Source: Geodermatophilus sp. YIM 151500
Lineage (GTDB): Bacteria; Actinomycetota; Actinomycetes; Mycobacteriales; Geodermatophilaceae
Direction of reading: 5' to 3'
NCBI RefSeq assembly: GCF_025716945.1
Contig: NZ_JAOVZT010000008.1
Coordinates: 102,150-152,854, forward strand
DNA: 50,705 nucleotides
Part shown: positions 2,511 through 49,619 of the stretch, piece by piece
Numbering within the stretch: position 1 is the first letter of the stretch
How the letters are laid out: the number at the start of each line of letters is the position of its first letter
Notes under the pieces: model-generated
The model's input: the letters and a program-made list of their open reading frames with translations, nothing else
What the model was told of the DNA's origin: nothing
The model's database searches: none
Program-made: the position numbers and the translations under genes

Positions 2511-4043
2511 GTGCGCTCCACCCGACTGCTCGCCCTGACCGCTGCCGGCGCGCTCGCCGTCAGCGCCTGCTCGGGGGGTGAGGGCGTCGACACCGGTACG
2601 GGCGGGGGAGGCGGTGGCGGGGGCGAGAACACGCTCGTCGCCGCGGTCGCCGCCCAGCCGGACCAGCTCGACCCGCACGTGACCACGGCGTACCCGAGCT
2701 TCCAGGTGCTCGAGAACGTCTACGACACCCTCGTCGTGCCGAACGCCGAGGACCTGACGATGGAGCCGAGCCTGGCCGAGAGCTGGGAGACCAGCGAGGA
2801 CGGCCTGACCTGGACGTTCACCCTCCGCGAGGGCGTCACGTTCCACGACGGCAGCGAGTTCGACTCCGCCGACGTCGTCTACTCGTACAACCGGATCATC
2901 GACGAGGACCTGTCCAACGCCTACCGGTTCGCCACGGTGGAGTCGATCGAGGCCGACGGTCCGCAGACCGTGGTCATGACGCTCGGCCAGCAGACGCCGA
3001 ACCTGCTCGAGCGGATCGGCGCCTTCAAGGGCATGTCGATCATCCCGGAGGGGGCGGCCGACGAGCTCGACCTGACCATCGAGGCCGTCGGCACCGGGCC
3101 GTTCCAGCTCGAGAGCTCCGACGCGAGCAGCACGGTGCTCACCGCCTACCCCGACTACTGGGGCGGCGACGTCACGGTCGACGGCGTCGAGTTCCGCTAC
3201 ATCACCGAGCCGGCCGCCGCGCTGACCGCGCTGCAGAACGGCGAGGTGCAGTGGACCGACAACGTGCCGCCGCAGCAGATCCAGGCGCTGGAGGGCGAGC
3301 AGGCCGTGGAGCTGGCCGCCACGCCCAGCGTCGACTACTGGTACCTGTCGATGAACTACGACCGGGAGCCGTGGGGCAACCGGGACGTCCGCCGGGCGAT
3401 CGCCACCGCGATCGACCGCGAGGCGGTCGCCGAGGCGGCCAAGTTCGGTGCCGCCCGGGCCAACCAAACGGCGATCCCCGAGGACAGCTTCTTCTACTAC
3501 GACTACGCGCCGTACCAGGCCGATCCTGAGGCCGCCCGGCAGCTGCTCGAGGGGGCCGGCGTCCAGACGCCGCTCACCATGGGGCTGATGGTGACCGACG
3601 AGTTCCCCGAGACGGTCACCGCCGCGCAGGTGATCGCCAGCCAGCTGGAGCCGATCGGGATCACCGTCGAGGTGCAGAACGAGGACTTCGCCACCTGGCT
3701 CTCGCGCCAGGGCGACGGCGACTTCGACGCCTTCCTGCTCGGCTGGCTGGGCAACCTCGACCCGGCCGCCTACTACCAGGAGCAGCACATCACCGACGGG
3801 TCCAACAACTACCAGGGCTACAGCAACCCGGAGGTCGACCGGCTGCTGCAGGAGGGCGCGGCCGAGACCGACCAGGACGCCCGCAAGCAGATCTACGACC
3901 AGGCGGCGCAGCTGATCGTCGACGACGCCTCGTACGTGTACCTCTACAACCCCGACGTGGTGCAGGCCTGGACGCCGGGTCTGCAGGGCTACCAGATCCG
4001 CGCGGACAAGGCGATCAACTTCGAGAGCGTCCAGCTGCCGTGA
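2511..4043 (+). CDS. ABC transporter substrate-binding lipoprotein (SBP_bac_5 family)
   Basis: Extracellular solute receptor of a peptide/opine/nickel-type importer, 510 aa. The signal peptide ends in a lipobox (AVSAC) with lipidated Cys20, followed by a glycine-rich linker of about eight glycines. The body shows family-5 features: QPDQLDPH near residues 48-55, a SLAESWETSEDGLTWTF-type segment and a late SNPEVDRLLQEG segment. GTG 2511 has GGAGGA at 2498-2503. This is the first gene of a five-gene importer operon. The substrate cannot be read from sequence; dipeptides, oligopeptides and glutathione are all possible. Confidence 0.93.
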   Translation: MRSTRLLALTAAGALAVSACSGGEGVDTGTGGGGGGGGENTLVAAVAAQPDQLDPHVTTAYPSFQVLENVYDTLVVPNAEDLTMEPSLAESWETSEDGLTWTFTLREGVTFHDGSEFDSADVVYSYNRIIDEDLSNAYRFATVESIEADGPQTVVMTLGQQTPNLLERIGAFKGMSIIPEGAADELDLTIEAVGTGPFQLESSDASSTVLTAYPDYWGGDVTVDGVEFRYITEPAAALTALQNGEVQWTDNVPPQQIQALEGEQAVELAATPSVDYWYLSMNYDREPWGNRDVRRAIATAIDREAVAEAAKFGAARANQTAIPEDSFFYYDYAPYQADPEAARQLLEGAGVQTPLTMGLMVTDEFPETVTAAQVIASQLEPIGITVEVQNEDFATWLSRQGDGDFDAFLLGWLGNLDPAAYYQEQHITDGSNNYQGYSNPEVDRLLQEGAAETDQDARKQIYDQAAQLIVDDASYVYLYNPDVVQAWTPGLQGYQIRADKAINFESVQLP

Positions 4044-4088: not shown

Positions 4089-5030
4089 GTGACCGGGTAC
4101 CTGCTGCGCCGCACCGGCCAGTCGGCCGTGGTGCTCGCCGGGGTGAGCGTGATCGTGTTCGCCCTGGTGCACCTCGTGCCGGGCGACCCGGTGCGGTTGG
4201 CCCTCGGCACCCGCTTCGACCAGGCCACCTACGACGCGTTGCTCGCCCGCTCCGGCCTGGACCAGCCGCTGGTGCAGCAGTTCTTCGGCTGGGCCGGCCG
4301 GGCGCTGACCGGTGACCTCGGGGTCAGCTTCCGCAGCGGCGACCCGGTGACCCTGCTGATCCTCGAGCGGCTGCCGGCCACGGTGACCCTGGCGTTCGCC
4401 TCGCTGCTGGTCGCGCTGCTGATCGCCGTCCCGCTCGGCACCGTCTCGGCGCTGCGCCCGCGGACCGTCGTCGACCGGGCCGCCACGGTGTTCAGCCAGT
4501 TCGGCATCTCGGTGCCGGACTTCTGGATGGGCATCGTGCTCATCCTGGTCTTCGCCGGCACCCTGGGCTGGCTGCCGACGGGCGGCTACGTTCCGCTCGG
4601 CGAGGACCCGCTCGGCTGGTTGCAGCGGTTGATCATGCCGGCGGTGGTCACCGGGGTGGTGTCCGGCTCGGTGATCACCCGGTTCGTGCGGAGCAGCGTC
4701 CTGGAGGCGCTGGGTTCCGACCACGTGCGGACGGCGGAGGCCAAGGGCCTGCCCCGGCGGCAGGTGCTCACCTGGCACGTGCTGCGCAACGCCCTGCTGC
4801 CGCTGGTCACGGTGACCGGCGTGCAGCTGGCCTACCTGCTCTCCGGCGTGGTGGTGGTGGAGATCGTCTTCGCCTGGCCCGGCCTCGGCCAGCTGGCGCT
4901 CCAATCGGTGCAGGCCCGCGACTACCCGGTGCTGCAGGGCGCCATCCTGCTGTTCGCGCTGGTGTTCCTGGTGATCAACCTGCTGGTCGACCTGCTCTAC
5001 ACCGCCATCGACCCGAGGATCCGCAGGTGA
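4089..5030 (+). CDS. ABC transporter permease, DppB type
   Basis: Inner-membrane permease, 313 aa, with six predicted transmembrane segments. The N-terminal signature is that of DppB/OppB proteins (LRRTGQSAVVLAGVSVIVF, then HLVPGDPVRLALG). The ATPase-contacting EAA loop lies around residues 207-232 and includes E-A-K-G at 217-220. GTG 4089 begins the typical MTGYLLRR start. The gene starts 45 bp after the lipoprotein gene, and its TGA overlaps the GTG of the next permease by 4 bp. Confidence 0.92.
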   Translation: MTGYLLRRTGQSAVVLAGVSVIVFALVHLVPGDPVRLALGTRFDQATYDALLARSGLDQPLVQQFFGWAGRALTGDLGVSFRSGDPVTLLILERLPATVTLAFASLLVALLIAVPLGTVSALRPRTVVDRAATVFSQFGISVPDFWMGIVLILVFAGTLGWLPTGGYVPLGEDPLGWLQRLIMPAVVTGVVSGSVITRFVRSSVLEALGSDHVRTAEAKGLPRRQVLTWHVLRNALLPLVTVTGVQLAYLLSGVVVVEIVFAWPGLGQLALQSVQARDYPVLQGAILLFALVFLVINLLVDLLYTAIDPRIRR

Positions 5031-6034
5031 GCGTCCAGCCGACCCCCGGGCCGCCGCCGGGCGGCACGCCACCGGCCGAGACGCCGTCCGAGACGCCGGC
5101 CGAGACGCCGTCCGAGGCGCCGGGCGGCTCGCCGGGCCCGGCGGGCGGGCGGACGGCGACGCTGCGGCCCGCCCGACCGCGGTGGCGGGAGACGCTGCGG
5201 TTGCTGGCCGGCAACCCCACGGCCGCCGTCGCCGCCGTCCTGCTGCTGCTGATCGTGCTGGTCGCGGTCTTCGACGAGCCGCTGGCCCCGCAGGGCGCCA
5301 ACGAGATCGACGTGGCCGGCCGGCTGCAGCCGCCGGGCCTCGAGCACCCGTTCGGCACCGACGACCTGGGCCGCGACGTCCTGAGCCGGATCATCCTGGG
5401 CGCCTCGGTGTCGCTGCGGGTGGGCTTCCTGGCCGTGCTCATCGCGCTCGTGGTCGGCAGCACCATCGGGCTGCTGGCCGGCTTCTACGGCCGGTGGGTG
5501 GACGACGTCCTGATGCGGGTCATGGACATGCTGTTCGCCTTCCCGGCCGTGCTGCTCGCGATCGCCGTGCTCGCCGTCCGCGGGCCCGGCTCGGGCAACA
5601 CCGCGCTGGCCATCGCCGTCGTCTACGTGCCGATCTTCGCCCGGGTGACCCGGGCCAGCGTGCTCGGCGTCCGGGAGGAGGTGTACGTGCGCGCCTCCCG
5701 CTCCGTCGGAGCCGGGGACCTCCGGCTGCTCACCCGGCACGTGCTGCCCAACGCCGCCCCGCCGATCATCGTGCAGACCTCGATCAGCCTGGCGTTCGCG
5801 GTGCTCGCCGAGGCGGCGCTGTCGTTCCTCGGCCTGGGCACCCAGCCGCCGAACCCGTCGTGGGGGTTGATGCTCGCCGAGGGCCGCGGCTACATCGAGC
5901 TCGCCTGGTGGATCGCGTTCTTCCCCGGCATGGCCATCTTCCTGACCGTGCTGTGCTTCAACCTGCTCGGCGACGGGCTGCGCGACGTGCTCGACCCGCG
6001 GCAGCGCACGCTGATGGGCGGGGGCGGTCGGTGA
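5027..6034 (+). CDS. ABC transporter permease, DppC type, with Pro/Thr/Glu-rich N-terminal tail
   Basis: Second permease of the importer, 335 aa. Homologues begin close to the segment corresponding to WRETLRLLAGNPTAAVA. Here about 45 residues precede it, rich in Pro, Thr, Ser, Glu and Gly with a repeated PSETPAETPSE pattern, so the cytoplasmic N-terminus is unusually long and disordered. DppC hallmarks follow: HPFGTDDLGRDVLSRI, an EAA loop near 215-240 and FLGLGTQPPNPSWG. GTG 5027 overlaps the previous stop by 4 bp. An internal start downstream of the tail cannot be excluded, but the overlap supports the long form. Confidence 0.9.
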   Translation: MSVQPTPGPPPGGTPPAETPSETPAETPSEAPGGSPGPAGGRTATLRPARPRWRETLRLLAGNPTAAVAAVLLLLIVLVAVFDEPLAPQGANEIDVAGRLQPPGLEHPFGTDDLGRDVLSRIILGASVSLRVGFLAVLIALVVGSTIGLLAGFYGRWVDDVLMRVMDMLFAFPAVLLAIAVLAVRGPGSGNTALAIAVVYVPIFARVTRASVLGVREEVYVRASRSVGAGDLRLLTRHVLPNAAPPIIVQTSISLAFAVLAEAALSFLGLGTQPPNPSWGLMLAEGRGYIELAWWIAFFPGMAIFLTVLCFNLLGDGLRDVLDPRQRTLMGGGGR

Positions 6035-7086
6035 CGGCGCCGCTGCTCGAGGTCGACGACCTGTGCGTGCGGCTGCGGACGCCGCGCGGTCCCGCGGCGG
6101 TGGTCAACGGGCTCAGCTACACCGTCGGCGAGGGCGAGACGGTGGCCGTGGTGGGGGAATCGGGCAGCGGCAAGAGCGTCTCGGTGCTCGCCCTGCTCGG
6201 GCTGCTGCCCACCCGGTCGGCGACGGTGACCGGGCGGGCGCTGCTGCGCGGCGAGGACCTGCTGACCCTGCCCGACGACCGGCTGCGCCGGATCCGCGGC
6301 GCCGGCGTCGGCATGGTGTTCCAGGACCCGATGACCTCGCTCAACCCGGTGCTCACCGTCGGGCGTCAGCTGGTCGAGGGCATCCGGGCGCACGCCGACG
6401 TGCCCAGGCCGGCCGCCCGCGACCGGGCCGCCGAGCTGCTCGGCGAGGTGGGCCTGCCCGATCCGCGCCGGGCGCTCGACCGCTATCCGCACGAGCTGTC
6501 GGGCGGCATGCGGCAGCGGGTGATGATCGCGATCGCGCTGTCGAACTCGCCGTCCCTGCTGATCGCCGACGAGGCGACCACCGCGCTCGACGTGACCGTG
6601 CAGGCGCAGATCCTCGAGCTGGTCGAGCGGCTGCAGCGCGACCACGGCACCGGCGTCGTGTGGATCACCCACGACCTCGGCGTCGTCGCCGGCATCGCCG
6701 ACCGGGTGCTGGTCATGTACGGCGGGCGCTGCGTGGAGGACGGCACGGCCGACGACGTCCTGGAGCGGCCCGCGCACCCCTACACGCGCGGCCTCCTCGG
6801 CGCGCTGCCCGACCTGGCGCTGGACCGCGACGACGGCGAGCTGGCGACCGTGCCCGGCACCCCGCCGCCGCCGACCGACCTGCCCGAGGGGTGCGTCTTC
6901 TGGCCGCGCTGCCCGGTGCGCGGTGATCCGCGGTGCGAGACCGAGCAGCCGCCCCTCGCCCCCGTCCTCCGCGGCGGTCACGGCCATGACCGCCGCGAGC
7001 CGCCGCACCGGGCGGCGACCTGGTGCGGCGAGGACGAGGCGCCGGCGCGCGGCAGCGGGGCGGCGGCCGCCGGGAGAGCACCGTGA
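6031..7086 (+). CDS. ABC transporter ATP-binding protein, DppD type
   Basis: Cytoplasmic ATPase, 351 aa. Walker A GESGSGKS spans residues 42-49, the signature LSGGM starts at 156, Walker B ends with Asp180-Glu181 and the switch histidine is His214 (ITHDLGV). The C-terminal oligopeptide-transporter extension has the cysteine motif [15 protein letters not shown] typical of DppD/OppD. GTG 6031 overlaps the permease stop by 4 bp. The reading frame is open upstream of this point, but that part encodes no ABC domain and is antiphase to the permease gene. Confidence 0.93.
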
Positions 7087-43388: not shown

Positions 43389-46300
43389 GTGAAGACCTGG
43401 CTCGACTCCTGGCCGGTGTACCGGCAGCTGACCGGCTCGGATCCGCTGGGCCGCGGCACGGCCGCGCGCAGCACGGGCACGGAGAAGGTCACCGCGCGCA
43501 CGGCGACCGCCGACCGCGTCGTCCAGACGGTCTGCCCCTACTGCGCCGTCGGCTGCGGTCAGCGGGTCTACGTCAAGGACGAACGCATCGTGCAGATCGA
43601 GGGCGACCCCGACTCGCCGATCAGCCGTGGCCGGCTGTGCCCGAAGGGCAGCGCGACCAAGGGCCTGGTGACCAGCCCGAGCCGGGTGACCACGGTGAAG
43701 TACCGCCGTCCGTACGGGACGGAGTGGGAGGACCTCGACCTCGACACGGCGATGGACATGATCGCCGACCGCGTGCTCGACGCCCGCCGCAAGGGCTGGC
43801 AGGACAAGCACGACGGGCTGAAGGTCAACCGGACCATGGGGATAGCGAGCCTCGGAGGGGCGACCCTCGACAACGAGGAGAACTACCTCATGAAGAAGCT
43901 CTACAGCGCCCTGGGCGCGATCCAGATCGAGAACCAGGCGCGCATATAGCACTCCGCCACGGTCCCCGGTCTGGGGACCTCGTTCGGCCGCGGTGGGGCG
44001 ACCACCTTCCAGCAGGACCTGGTGAACTCCGACTGCATCGTCATCGAGGGTTCCAACATGGCCGAGTGCCACCCGGTCGGCTTCCAGTGGGTGATGGAGG
44101 CCAAGCAGCGGGGCGCGAAGGTCATCCACGTCGACCCACGGTTCACCCGGACGTCGGCCGTGGCCGACCTGCACGTGCCGCTGCGGGCGGGCACCGACAT
44201 CGCCTTCCTCGGCGGGCTGATCAACCACGTCCTGCAGAACGAGCTCGACTTCCGCGAGTACGTCGTCGCGTACACCAACGCGTCGGCGATCGTGCGGGAG
44301 GACTTCCGGGACACCGAGGACCTCGACGGGCTGTTCTCCGGCTTCGACCCGGAGACGCGGCAGTACGACGAGACGTCGTGGCAGTACGAGGGTTTCGCCG
44401 TGAACCCGGCGTCCGGGCAGCGCTCGCCGACCCTGCCGGGCGGCTCGGCGTTCCGGCAGGCCGAGGACGGCGTGGTGCAGGACAACCTGACCGAGGACGG
44501 CGACCCGACCGAGGGTGCCCCCGACGCCGGTGAGGACCAGCGGGGCAGCGGCGAGGTCGAGGCCGGCGAGACCTCGGACATCAAGGACGCCGACCAGTAC
44601 GAGGGCGGCCAGGGCTCGGCCAACCTGCGGGGCCGGCCGGAGACCGACCCGACCCTGCAGCACCCGCGCTGCGTCTACCAGATCCTCAAGCGGCACTTCG
44701 CCCGCTACACCCCGGAGATGGTCGGCGAGATCTGCGGCATCGAGCCGGAGGTCTTCCTCGAGGTCGCGCGGACGGTCACCGCCAACAGCAACCGCGAGCG
44801 GACGACGTCCTGGGTCTACTCCGTCGGCTGGACCCACCACACCGTCGGCGTCCAGTACATCCGCGCCTGCTCCATCCTGCAGGCCCTGCTCGGCAACATG
44901 GGCCGGCCCGGCGGCGGCATCCTGGCGCTGCGCGGGCACGCCAGCATCCAGGGGTCGACCGACATCCCGACGCTGTTCAACTTGCTGCCGGGCTACATCC
45001 CGATGCCGCACGCCCGCGAGCACCTCGACCTGGACAGGTTCTGCGCCTCGAGCGCGGGCCGCGGCGGGTTCTGGGGCAACATGCGCGCCTACACCGTCAG
45101 CCTGCTCAAGGCCTGGTGGGGCGACGCGGCGACGGCGGAGAACGACTTCGCGTTCGGCTACCTGCCGCGGCTGACCGGCGACCACGGCACGTACAAGACC
45201 AGCGCCGACATGATCCAGGGCAAGGTGCCCGGCTACTTCCTGGTCGGGGAGAACCCGACCGTCGGGCACGCCAACGGCCGGATGCAGCGGTTCGCGCTGG
45301 CCAACCTGGAGTGGCTGGTCGTCCGCGACCTGCAGATGATCGAGTCGGCCACGTTCTGGAAGACCGCGCCGGAGATCGAGACCGGCGAGCTGGTCACCGA
45401 CCGGATCGCCACCGAGGTCTTCTTCGTGCCCGCCGCGACGCACGTGGAGAAGGAGGGCACCTTCACCCAGACGCAGCGGCTGCTGCAGTGGCGGCACAAG
45501 GCCGTCGACCCGCCGGGCGACTGCCGCAGCGACCTGTGGTTCTACTACCACCTGGGCAAGCGCATCCGGGAGAAGCTGGCTGGCTCCACCGATCCGCGCG
45601 ACCGGCCGATCCTCGACCTGACCTGGGACTACCCGGAGCACGGCGAGCACGCCGAGCCCGACGCCGAGGCGGTGCTGCGGGAGATCAACGGGTGGGACGG
45701 CGACGGCAGGGCGCTGTCCAGCTACCTGGAGATGAAGGACGACGGCTCGACCACCGGCGGCTGCTGGATCTACACCGGCGTCTACGCCGACGAGGTCAAC
45801 CAGTCGGCGCGGCGCAAGCCCGGCCGCGAGCAGGACTGGGTGGCCAACGAGTGGGGCTGGGCGTGGCCGGCCGACCGGCGGATCCTCTACAACCGCGCCA
45901 GCGCGGACCCCTCCGGCAAGCCGTGGAGCGAGCGGAAGAAGTACGTCTACTGGGACGAGGACGCCGGCGAGTGGACCGGGCCCGACGTGCCGGACTTCGA
46001 GAGGACCAAGCGCCCGGACTACGTGCCGCCGGACGACGCCAAGGCGCAGGACGCGCTGGGCGGCGCCGACCCGTTCGTGATGCAGAGCGACGGCAAGGCG
46101 TGGTTGTACGTGCCGGCGGGCCTGGCCGACGGCCCGATGCCGACGCACTACGAGCCGGCCGAGTCACCCGTGGAGAACCTGCTGTACCAGCAGCAGGCGA
46201 ACCCGGCCCGCGAGGAGATCCACGCCGCGTGGAACCGGCTCAACACGTCCGCCGACGACGCGTACCCGTTCGTCTTCGCCACCTACCGGCTCACCGAGCA

Positions 46301-46769
46301 CCACACCGCCGGCGGGATGAGCCGCACGCTGCCCTACCTGTCGGAGCTGCAGCCGGAGTTCTTCGTCGAGGTCAGCCCTCAGCTGGCCGAGGAGCGCGGG
46401 CTGGAGAACGGCGAGTGGGCGACGCTGATCACCGCCCGGACGGCGGTCGAGGCGAAGGTGCTGGTCACCGAGCGGATGCGGCCGCTGAAGATGCGCGACG
46501 GGCGGCGGGTGCACCAGATCGGCGTCCCGTACCACTGGGGGGAGCAGGGCCTGTCGGTCGGCGACTCGGCCAACGACCTGCTGGCCGTGGTGATGGACCC
46601 GAACGTGCACATCCAGGAGTCGAAGGTGGCCAGCTGCGACATCCGGCCGGGCCGCCGTCCGCGGGGCCAGGCGCTGGTCGACTTCGTCGAGGAGCACCGC
46701 CGGAAGGCCGGGGTGAAGTCGGGGCTGGTGCCGGTCGGTGGCCGGGCCCCGGTGGAGGACGCGACGTGA
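43389..46769 (+). CDS. fdhA: Selenocysteine-containing formate dehydrogenase, catalytic subunit, with in-frame TAG at Sec187
   Basis: Molybdopterin bis-MGD enzyme oxidising formate to CO2, 1126 aa if TAG 43947-43949 is read as selenocysteine. The [4Fe-4S] cysteines are C49, C52, C56 and C84, with GRLCPKG following. The sequence before TAG (IENQARI) and after it (HSATVPGLGTSFGRGG) matches FdnG-type enzymes, where the residue at this place is Sec followed by His. The frame is open for 940 codons past TAG; without readthrough only 186 residues would be made. Domains continue with VIHVDPRFTRTS and a C-terminal MopB half from about 930. An acidic insertion spans about 335-415. No twin-arginine signal is seen, so the subunit may stay cytoplasmic. 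GTG 43389 is preferred; GTG 43380 is possible. Confidence 0.93.
43947..43949 (+). other. TAG codon predicted to encode selenocysteine (recoded amber)
   Basis: The TAG is flanked by Ile (ata) and His (cac), in the same frame as both halves of fdhA. It aligns with the catalytic Sec of FdnG/FdhF. TAG differs from the usual Sec codon TGA at two positions, so a single sequencing error cannot explain it. The codon needs a tRNA-Sec with anticodon CUA, which is not in this window. Confidence 0.88.
43961..43979 (+). promoter_or_regulatory. Bacterial SECIS element (selenocysteine insertion hairpin)
   Basis: GGTCCCC (43961-43967) pairs perfectly with GGGGACC (43973-43979) around the loop GGTCT. The stem begins 11 nt after the TAG. 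In E. coli fdhF the SelB-binding hairpin has the same loop (GGUCU, with essential G and U) and the same 11-nt distance (recalled). Weak lower pairing is possible with flanking bases. This is direct support for Sec insertion at TAG. Confidence 0.88.
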
Positions 46770-47457: not shown

Positions 47458-47487
47458 GGTACAGCCAGCGACGTGGAAGGAGCCGGC

Positions 47488-48561
47488 GTGACCTCGGTCA
47501 GCTCGGCGAGCCCGGTGTTCTCCGGGCGGGATCGGCAGAACCGGCTGTTCGGGCCGCTGCCCGACGTCAGCGGCGAGGCCGGCTACGAGGCCGACCACCC
47601 GCAGCGGATCGGCTTCTTCACCGACACCTCGGTGTGCATCGGGTGCAAGGCCTGCGAGGTGGCCTGCAAGGAGTGGAACATGCTCCCGATGGACGACGCG
47701 GATGGTGTCCGCGACGCCATGGGGCTGTCGGGCATGTCCTACGACAACACCGGGATGCTGGGCGCCAACTCGTGGCGGCACGTGGCGTTCGTCGAGCAGA
47801 GTCGCCCGGTCGACCTGCCGATGCCGCAGGTCGGGCCGCCCGGTGCCGGGCGGTTCGGCGAGTCGCAGGCGCCCGGGCACGCGGACGGCGACCTGCCGGC
47901 CGACGGGACGACGCCGGCCTACACCGGGGTGCTGAACGCCGAGGCGCTGACCGAGTTCGACCCGCAGACCGGGCGGTCGGCCGACCGCGAGGTGCGCTGG
48001 CTGATGAGCTCGGACGTGTGCAAGCACTGCACGCACGCGGGTTGCCTGGACGTCTGCCCGACCGGGGCGCTGTTCCGCACCGAGTTCGGCACGGTCGTCG
48101 TCCAGGGCGACATCTGCAACGGCTGCGGGTACTGCGTGCCGGCCTGCCCGTACGGGGTGATCGACAAGCGCGAGGGCGACGGCCGGGTGTTCAAGTGCAC
48201 CCTGTGCTACGACCGGACGCTGGACGGGCTGATGCCGGCGTGCGCCACCGCGTGCCCGACCCAGTCGATCCAGTTCGGCAACCTCGACGAACTGCAGGCG
48301 CGGGCCGACGCACGGCTGGCGACGCTGCGTGAGCAGGGCGTCGAGTCGGCCCGGCTCTACGGGCGAGACGAGAACGACGGCGTCGGCGGAGCGGGGGCGT
48401 TCTTCCTGCTGCTCGACGAGCCCGAGGTGTACGGGTTGCCGCCGGACCCGGTGGTGCCCACCCGGGATCTGCCGTCGCTGTGGAAGTCGGCGGGGGCTGC
48501 CGCGGCGATGATCGTCGGCGTGATCGGCACGGCGGTGCTCGGGTCGCGGGGGCGGAAGTGA
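47488..48561 (+). CDS. fdhB: Formate dehydrogenase iron-sulfur subunit (four [4Fe-4S] ferredoxin-like)
   Basis: Electron-transfer subunit of 357 aa carrying electrons from the catalytic subunit towards the quinone pool. Four cysteine clusters are seen in order: CIGCKACEVAC, CKHCTHAGCLDVCP, CNGCGYCVPACP and CTLCYDRTLDGLMPACATACP (cut between two clusters). An insertion of about 70 residues lies between clusters one and two. A C-terminal transmembrane helix (AMIVGVIGTAVLG) should anchor it. GTG 47488 has GGAAGGAG at a good distance. Its TGA overlaps the NrfD gene by 4 bp. Confidence 0.92.
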   Translation: MTSVSSASPVFSGRDRQNRLFGPLPDVSGEAGYEADHPQRIGFFTDTSVCIGCKACEVACKEWNMLPMDDADGVRDAMGLSGMSYDNTGMLGANSWRHVAFVEQSRPVDLPMPQVGPPGAGRFGESQAPGHADGDLPADGTTPAYTGVLNAEALTEFDPQTGRSADREVRWLMSSDVCKHCTHAGCLDVCPTGALFRTEFGTVVVQGDICNGCGYCVPACPYGVIDKREGDGRVFKCTLCYDRTLDGLMPACATACPTQSIQFGNLDELQARADARLATLREQGVESARLYGRDENDGVGGAGAFFLLLDEPEVYGLPPDPVVPTRDLPSLWKSAGAAAAMIVGVIGTAVLGSRGRK

Positions 48562-49619
48562 CGGCGTCCCCGGGAGCCGGCTGGCGGCGGGCCGACGGCC
48601 CGGCGGCGCACGACCGGGAGAAGCGGCGCCGCCGCCGGGGGAACGGCCACGGATCGGGCGGCGGCGTGGGCTTCCGCGCGGCGGCGGCCGACGGGGCGCC
48701 CGTCGTGCAGGACGTCGAGTTCTCCTCCTACTACGGGCGGCCGGTGATCAAGGCGCCGGTGTGGAAGACGCCCGACGTCCCGCTGTACCTGTTCCTGGGT
48801 GGGGCGGCGGGGACGTCGGCGATCCTGGGGGCGTTCTCGGAGCTGACCGGGCGCCCGGTGCTGGCGCGGGTGTCGCGGCTGGTGTCCGGAGGCGGGTCGG
48901 TGCTGTCGGTGGGCTGGCTGATCCACGACCTGGGTCGGCCGGAGCGGTTCCTGAACATGCTGCGGGTGCTCAAGCCGACCTCGCCGCTGTCGGTGGGGTC
49001 GTGGATCCTGGCGCCGTTCAGCGCGGCGACCGGGGCGACGGCGGCGGTGGAACTGCTCGGCTGGTTCCCGCGGCTGAAGCAGTTCGGCGGCGCGGTGGCG
49101 GCGCTGTTCGGTGCGCCGATGGCGACCTACACCGCGGTGCTGTTCGCGAACACCGCGGTGCCGTCGTGGAAGGAGCCGGGCAAGCAGCTGCCGTTCGTGT
49201 TCGCCGGGTCGGCGCTGGCCGCGGGTGGCGGCCTGACGATGGTGTTCGCGCCGGTGGAGGAGGCGGCGCCGTCGCGGGCGATGGCGGTGGCCGGGGCGGC
49301 GGTGGAGCTCGCGGTGATGCAGAAGGTGGAGCACGACCACGGGATCGTCAGCGAGCCCTACCGGGAGGACAAGGCGGGGAAGTACCTCAAGGCGGCGCGG
49401 ACGTGCACCGCGGCAGGGGCTGGGCTGACCCTGCTGGCCGGCCGCCGCCGGCTGGGAGCCGTTGCGTCAGGTGCGCTGTTGGCGGCCGGATCGCTGCTGA
49501 CCCGCTTCGGTGTCTACGAAGCCGGGATGGCGTCGGCCAAGGACCCGAAGTACACCGTCGTCCCCCAGCGCGAGCGGCTCGTCGAGCAGGACGGGCACGC
49601 CCGCTCCGTCGTCCGCTAG
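48558..49619 (+). CDS. nrfD: NrfD/PsrC-family membrane subunit of formate dehydrogenase
   Basis: Polytopic membrane protein of 353 aa, probably the quinone-reducing subunit. A long soluble N-terminus includes a basic HDREKRRRRRGNGHG stretch, then about eight hydrophobic helices beginning PLYLFLGGAAGTSAILGAF. HDLGRPERFLNMLRV is characteristic of NrfD. A haem-binding FdnI-type subunit is not present, so electrons are probably passed to menaquinone through NrfD. GTG 48558 overlaps fdhB by 4 bp. It ends in TAG. Confidence 0.88.
   Translation: MTASPGAGWRRADGPAAHDREKRRRRRGNGHGSGGGVGFRAAAADGAPVVQDVEFSSYYGRPVIKAPVWKTPDVPLYLFLGGAAGTSAILGAFSELTGRPVLARVSRLVSGGGSVLSVGWLIHDLGRPERFLNMLRVLKPTSPLSVGSWILAPFSAATGATAAVELLGWFPRLKQFGGAVAALFGAPMATYTAVLFANTAVPSWKEPGKQLPFVFAGSALAAGGGLTMVFAPVEEAAPSRAMAVAGAAVELAVMQKVEHDHGIVSEPYREDKAGKYLKAARTCTAAGAGLTLLAGRRRLGAVASGALLAAGSLLTRFGVYEAGMASAKDPKYTVVPQRERLVEQDGHARSVVR

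Follow-up and report, generated by a model that had tools for sequence, protein, structure and literature searches.

An in-frame TAG as the probable selenocysteine codon of a formate dehydrogenase gene in Geodermatophilus and its relatives

We have analysed a 50,705-nucleotide stretch of the genome of Geodermatophilus sp. YIM 151500 (contig NZ_JAOVZT010000008.1, positions 102,150 to 152,854; hereafter the window), in which the formate dehydrogenase gene fdhA is interrupted by a single TAG at 43947-43949. This TAG is almost certainly the selenocysteine (Sec) codon of the gene, and it would be read by a Sec-specific tRNA (tRNA-Sec) with a CUA anticodon, with the help of SelB and an mRNA hairpin. 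Sec is the most likely meaning because relatives carry TGA at the same site and the genome holds a matching tRNA-Sec. An earlier reading made without database searches (the sequence-only reading) had proposed this interpretation, which is supported at the level of sequence.

Translation of the frame 43389-46769 confirmed that fdhA is broken by one TAG, the lone internal stop, which falls at residue 187 counted from the GTG at 43389 and in the context AIQIENQARI-TAG-HSATVPGLG. That the two halves form one FdnG-like enzyme in a single frame, split just by this codon, was borne out by translation and by the NCBIfam formate dehydrogenase model NF041513. With the TAG taken as a residue, this model matched residues 4-1105, on both sides of the TAG, at 1946.4 bits against a cut-off of 1400, and TIGR01553 scored 952.8 bits (cut-off 814.2). 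The long open frame described past the TAG is also present; it comprises 939 sense codons, not the 940 claimed, followed by a TGA stop. In the alignment to PDB chains the TAG site lies opposite an X in 1h0h and 1kqf, which we take to be Sec, and opposite a C in 9qm0, an entry titled as selenocysteine-containing. The residue directly after the recoded stop is His, as in the Sec formate dehydrogenases 1h0h and 1kqf. A window scan for in-frame stops flanked by coding-like composition returned five candidates (two TAG and three TGA); inspection by eye of the residues on either side left the stop at 43947 as the only one that connects two portions of a single protein. Three weaker fdhA-like matches elsewhere in the genome, all without an internal stop, were taken as other molybdoenzymes.

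The sequence-only reading had pointed to a CUA tRNA-Sec gene and to selA, selB and selD as what the same genome should contain. All of them were found in this genome (G000; 4,771,094 bases, 53 contigs, 99.82% complete), which is thus neither devoid of Sec genes nor restricted to a UCA tRNA-Sec. The tRNA-Sec lies at C49:2601-2692 (RF01852, 66.4 bits, cut-off 47; fold z -3.64), with CUA as the anticodon assigned by ARAGORN. It is surrounded on the same contig by selD (other strand), selA and selB, each above the cut-off of its model (TIGR00476, 387.3 bits; TIGR00474, 424.8 bits; and TIGR00475, 282 bits, respectively). The sole other match over the RF01852 cut-off, with 51 bits, is a tRNA-Ser(UGA) inside the window. 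TAG occupies the predicted Sec site in all three candidate selenoprotein genes looked for in the genome, namely fdhA, a gene of the UGSC family and a gene for an SBP_bac_5-type protein (SBP). The UGSC gene is the one match to NF041046 (L246, G000:C11:636191-636613, minus strand) and has a single TAG in the context VAVGD-TAG-GSCSSW. A crude gene caller counted 39 TGA and 6 TAG as stops over 45 calls, some of them false and one being the SBP gene's first half; a deduction of UAG avoidance from stop usage was dropped, as these counts are too rough.

We have then surveyed 76 genomes of the Geodermatophilaceae, with E-value thresholds of 1e-10 for tRNA-Sec and 1e-100 for fdhA. The 74 genomes with tRNA-Sec carry 76 such genes, of which 68 are CUA forms (67 genomes) and eight are UCA forms. 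The latter come from seven UCA-only genomes (genera g6, g8 and g10; assemblies of 190 to 550 contigs) and from an extra copy in genome G014. The anticodon arm reads GGTCTTCAAAACC in most of the seven UCA-only genomes and GGCCTCTAAAGCC in the CUA genes, the anticodon and the closing pair differing together. fdhA was found in 66 of the 76 genomes, all 66 being among the 67 with a CUA tRNA-Sec; the ten without it are the seven UCA-only genomes, the two with no tRNA-Sec match and G071. One TAG, at the same place, interrupts the N-terminal part of fdhA in 65 of the 66 genomes, and because of this recurrence the TAG is not a chance event. When the codon was read directly in 30 family loci, 29 had TAG, the remaining one being that of G039.

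Outside the family TGA prevails at the site. In a sample of 296 genomes of the phylum, the N-terminal part of fdhA was present in 81, with TAG in our genome, TGA in 78 and no stop in two. TGA is thus present in 78 of the 80 other genomes. As the sequence-only reading had noted, Sec is normally encoded by UGA in this enzyme family. Direct reading succeeded in 28 of 29 non-family phylum loci and gave 27 TGA and one TGC (G113); G315, the second phylum genome without a stop, lay outside this reading. A pattern for the CUA tRNA-Sec, which is blind to CUA forms with a different T arm, matched three of the 296 genomes, ours among them, and ARAGORN reported no tRNA at the other two loci.

Just downstream of the TAG the message can form a hairpin resembling a bacterial Sec insertion sequence (bSECIS; Table 1), with the stem GGUCCCC/GGGGACC and the loop GGUCU. 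Of the 59 fdhA loci considered, the 56 that carry TAG or TGA yielded 44 distinct sequences; left out were L062 (from G039) and L259, in neither of which a site was found, and L269 (a Cys form). The fourth pair (43964-43976) is C-G in 31 sequences, G-U in six, U-A in three, G-C in three and U-G in one, and the seventh (43967-43973) is C-G in 40 and G-C in four, while the third pair fails in one sequence. The loop is GGUCU in 35, AGUCU in six and AGUUU in three. These compensatory changes are common to the TAG and TGA forms. The GGUCU loop is absent from L269, the sole Cys form read.

Along the lines of the established bacterial Sec pathway, SelD would supply selenophosphate, SelA would convert Ser-tRNASec(CUA) to Sec-tRNASec(CUA), and SelB would deliver the latter to the fdhA UAG, marked by the hairpin. 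A UAG without such a hairpin, for instance at the end of the NrfD-type gene in this operon, would remain a stop. The frame of that gene ends at TAG 49617-49619, where UAG seems still to be a stop. Within the Geodermatophilaceae we infer that the tRNA anticodon changed from UCA to CUA, the stem closing pair along with it, and that the Sec codons changed from TGA to TAG.

Other explanations of the interrupted frame were weighed against Sec. An fdhA turned into a pseudogene by a nonsense mutation would show an in-frame stop, as it does here, and the G039 copy (L062, G039:C12) is indeed broken, a frame-shifting deletion having removed the stretch with the Sec codon. Decay is nevertheless scarcely conceivable for a gene whose single TAG is kept throughout the family, save in that copy, and whose 17 full-length matches besides itself share 74-84% identity over the whole protein. 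The recurrence in 65 genomes also makes a sequencing or assembly error vanishingly improbable, and TAG lies two substitutions away from TGA, an argument against sequencing noise that had already been put forward and that holds. The name tRNA-Pyl, which ARAGORN derived from the anticodon of the C49 tRNA, would suit a UAG decoded as pyrrolysine or through general amber suppression. This tRNA, however, exceeds the tRNA-Sec cut-off, is, apart from its anticodon arm, like the UCA tRNA-Sec found in sister genera and is located among selD, selA and selB, and the aligned site is Sec in the solved relatives; such a decoding is as hard to credit as a pseudogene. Slightly less remote, and still highly improbable, is a UAG that chiefly stops translation, with little Sec inserted by regulated readthrough. 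UAG seemingly being also the stop of the NrfD-type gene, a release factor would be expected to compete, whereas the location in the active site and the conservation of the hairpin favour Sec insertion.

Besides the G039 deletion and the tRNA-Pyl label, a few observations weigh against reading the TAG as Sec. G071 has a CUA tRNA-Sec and no fdhA match at E 1e-100, and G215, from outside the family, has a TAG in addition to TGA in the same part of fdhA. The fdhA hairpin on its own is not stabler than shuffled sequences (z -1.20 for 45 nt and -0.45 for 55 nt), and its outermost pair is formed in just 36 of the 44 sequences. Finally, the UGSC match reached 108.6 and 115.4 bits, under the curated cut-off of 125.

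The SBP gene lies between the tRNA-Sec and selA (L009, G000:C49, 2868-4556; PF00496, E 2.3e-43) and contains one TAG at 3351-3353, in the context GSGEGHW-TAG-VIDEPGPWGTG. It probably represents an unlisted selenoprotein family with a NikA/Opp fold that operates under the UAG code, in a family of bacteria in which one genome, G014, would use two Sec codons with one SelA. Nine genomes among the 76 contain SBP-type genes. In the type adjacent to tRNA-Sec the codon is TAG in G000, G069, G051 and G040 (where the frame shifts farther on) but TGA in G025, a UCA tRNA genome. A second type has TAG in G034, G033, G050, G040 and G051 (split in G051), and in G007, which has a UCA tRNA, it shows TAA at the Sec site and more frame damage (L081, L182); the G007 copy is either decaying or an assembly error. 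The gene is UAG-coded in every CUA genome in which the site was read. As its TGA or TAG follows the tRNA of the genome, the SBP gene would record the codon swap together with that of the tRNA.

Named genomes were scanned with two N-terminal motifs as seeds; of the 89 SBP relatives found, 80 were kept, and codons were counted twice with different patterns. The site was TGA in 68 of these loci, TAG in 11 and TAA in one (the broken G007 copy). All 11 TAG loci belong to the Geodermatophilaceae (Geodermatophilus, Modestobacter and Blastococcus records), and TGA is the codon in, among others, Pseudonocardia, Rubrobacter, Solirubrobacterales, Bacillaceae, Methylobacterium and Methylibium. Among 396 genomes sampled from the phylum, SBP was present in 24, namely our own and 23 that belong to a single other family; the 25 loci of that family carry TGA throughout and overlap partly with the named loci. 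No Cys form appeared in the 105 loci read besides our own, a set built from relatives seeded on N-terminal motifs, with 80 of 89 named ones kept; the family would therefore escape searches based on Cys/UGA pairs. According to PMC12013277, the method described there may miss selenoproteins that lack Cys homologues.

A sel gene was found inside the flank of 29 of the 80 named loci (SelB in 29, SelA in 13, tRNA-Sec in 10 and SelD in seven), and in the ten with both an SBP gene and a tRNA-Sec the codon and anticodon always agreed (three TAG-CUA and seven TGA-UCA). In the Methylobacterium radiotolerans plasmid pNYY1_1 (L293, ~5001-6470), which is typed mobilizable, an SBP gene with TGA stands directly before selB. 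It was the only match among 72,556 plasmid records at 1e-30 and is missing from the gene table, which omits pseudogenes. Several SBP copies are truncated or frame-shifted. The neighbouring sel genes suggest that SBP takes part in handling selenium; its Sec might, for example, bind a selenium compound or a soft metal.

Most SBP members share the motif GHW-U-[VAI][IL]D..GPW, and the residues invariant in 32 sequences include N20, W21, H92, H134, W161, the Sec and D165. The codons GGC CCG TGG are kept in all six loci of a Bacillaceae set, with the G+C content at third codon positions of the gene ranging from 0.29 to 0.48; of the further Bacillaceae loci outside this set (L169, L171 and L173), two, L169 and L173, have another codon and residue at the middle position. 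The structure predicted for SBP, with a mean pLDDT of 90.0, has the family 5 solute-binding fold and aligned with 5u4o over 452 residues (Z 32.9, root-mean-square deviation 2.5). By eye, our SBP member and many others have no signal peptide, and some proteobacterial ones may have one. Folded by itself, the SBP hairpin had no significant z. Over 75 distinct segments its best inner pair (columns 20-28) is C-G in 45, U-G in 21, G-C in seven and C-A in two; a single helix for all 75 failed, and the segments appear to pair in two registers, by lineage. An assignment to the solute-binding selenoproteins SaoB or SaoX was rejected, since an NCBIfam scan of eight out of eight members at E 0.1 listed ten families (NikA, Opp, Dpp and related types), neither of the two among them.

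In G014 the CUA tRNA-Sec lies on contig C11 with selA and selD, and a divergent UCA tRNA-Sec (81.8 bits) lies on contig C17 (L107, 1169-2157, for this tRNA and the gene beside it). The latter sits in a stretch of 59-63% G+C flanked by sequence of 68-77%, and genes resembling transposases were noted nearby by eye. Adjoining the tRNA is a CMD/AhpD-type gene (PF02627) with TGA in a CxxU motif, the TGA aligning with the second Cys of CxxC in a 28% identical protein. One SelA was found in the genome. In G014, UAG would be decoded by the native CUA tRNA and UGA by a foreign UCA tRNA, with a single SelA serving the two. Five of 25 other genomes of the genus match a ~0.7-kb stretch farther along C17 at 89-91%, for which reason the contig seems to belong to this genus; the island itself could be misjoined. 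The island had no long match on plasmids, and a stretch resembling its UCA tRNA occurs in five plasmid-collection records. Elsewhere in L107 (5512-4493, minus strand), two open frames are joined in frame by a TGA directly before an ATG and, read as one, have no Pfam match; the TGA is either a Sec codon or the junction of two coupled genes. On plasmids of Arthrobacter sp. YA7-1 and Tsukamurella tyrosinosolvens (L290/L291), selA, selB, selD and an fdh operon occur together, selA and selD being separated by a stretch that resembles a tRNA-Sec.

The features of the fdhA region are collected in Table 1. On the opposite strand between fdhA and the Fe-S subunit gene (46793 to ~47440, minus strand), we noted by eye a look-alike of a VapBC-type toxin-antitoxin pair.

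Table 1. Features of the fdhA region, in window coordinates.
Feature	Position	Strand	Evidence
fdhA 5' part (formate dehydrogenase alpha): Fe4S4 domain and start of molybdopterin domain	43389..43946	+	Open frame; PF04879, PF00384, NF041513
TAG, inferred Sec codon (residue 187)	43947..43949	+	Alignment to 1h0h/1kqf; codons of relatives; CUA tRNA-Sec in the genome
bSECIS-like hairpin, loop GGUCU beginning 18 nt past the TAG	43961..43979	+	Fold and covariation among relatives
fdhA 3' part, including TGA stop 46767-46769	43950..46769	+	Translation, NF041513, PDB alignment
4Fe-4S dicluster subunit, FdhB-like	47473..48561	+	PF13247, PF12838
NrfD-type membrane subunit, FdhC-like; frame end at TAG 49617-49619, taken as stop	48480..49619	+	PF03916

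The change of Sec codon spans most of one bacterial family, in which other genera keep a UCA tRNA-Sec. Such a mixture of CUA and UCA genera makes a multi-gene swap of a recoded codon testable by comparison. In practical terms, standard gene calling splits these genes in two, and the enzyme can be overlooked together with its companions.

Recoding of this kind has precedents. According to PMC10778597, UAG, UAA and ten sense codons are recoded as Sec in some species. The sequence-only reading had referred to a published survey that reportedly found UAG-decoding tRNA-Sec in Blastococcus and Geodermatophilus, with labelling evidence. PMC5330540 agrees on such tRNAs, describing, with reference to Mukai 2016, a CUA tRNA-Sec in three Geodermatophilaceae genomes (a Blastococcus genome is named) with genes for formate dehydrogenase, UGSC and AhpC. 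The fdhA TAG is a further case of this known code variation, and the UGSC gene with TAG is likewise of a known kind. As far as our literature searches reach, three things are new: the breadth of the census, the SBP-type family and its codon swap, and a genome that carries both forms of tRNA-Sec. The SBP_bac_5-type family is absent from the portions covered of a 2026 review table of 119 selenoprotein families and subfamilies (PMC13188914), which include formate dehydrogenase, UGSC, SaoB and SaoX, and terms for it gave nothing in the passages covered of PMC1794560 and PMC9312934. Nor was such a selenoprotein named in the titles and abstracts retrieved, among which subscription journals are thinly covered, and this is no proof of novelty.

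Compared with the known systems, the solute-binding selenoproteins SaoB and SaoX of the review portions covered (PMC13188914) have models that do not match the eight SBP members scanned. The UAG-Sec coding presented in PMC5330540 shares with ours the CUA tRNA-Sec, the TAG in formate dehydrogenase and UGSC genes and the bacterial family; it comprised three such tRNAs with formate dehydrogenase, UGSC and AhpC, whereas here the tRNA extends to 67 of 76 family genomes and the SBP_bac_5-type gene is added. With the N-type alpha subunit of Sec-form formate dehydrogenases (1kqf, 1h0h), fdhA shares the sequence of the whole chain, the Sec position and the His that comes next, but its codon is TAG instead of TGA and the membrane subunit encoded in the window is of the NrfD type.

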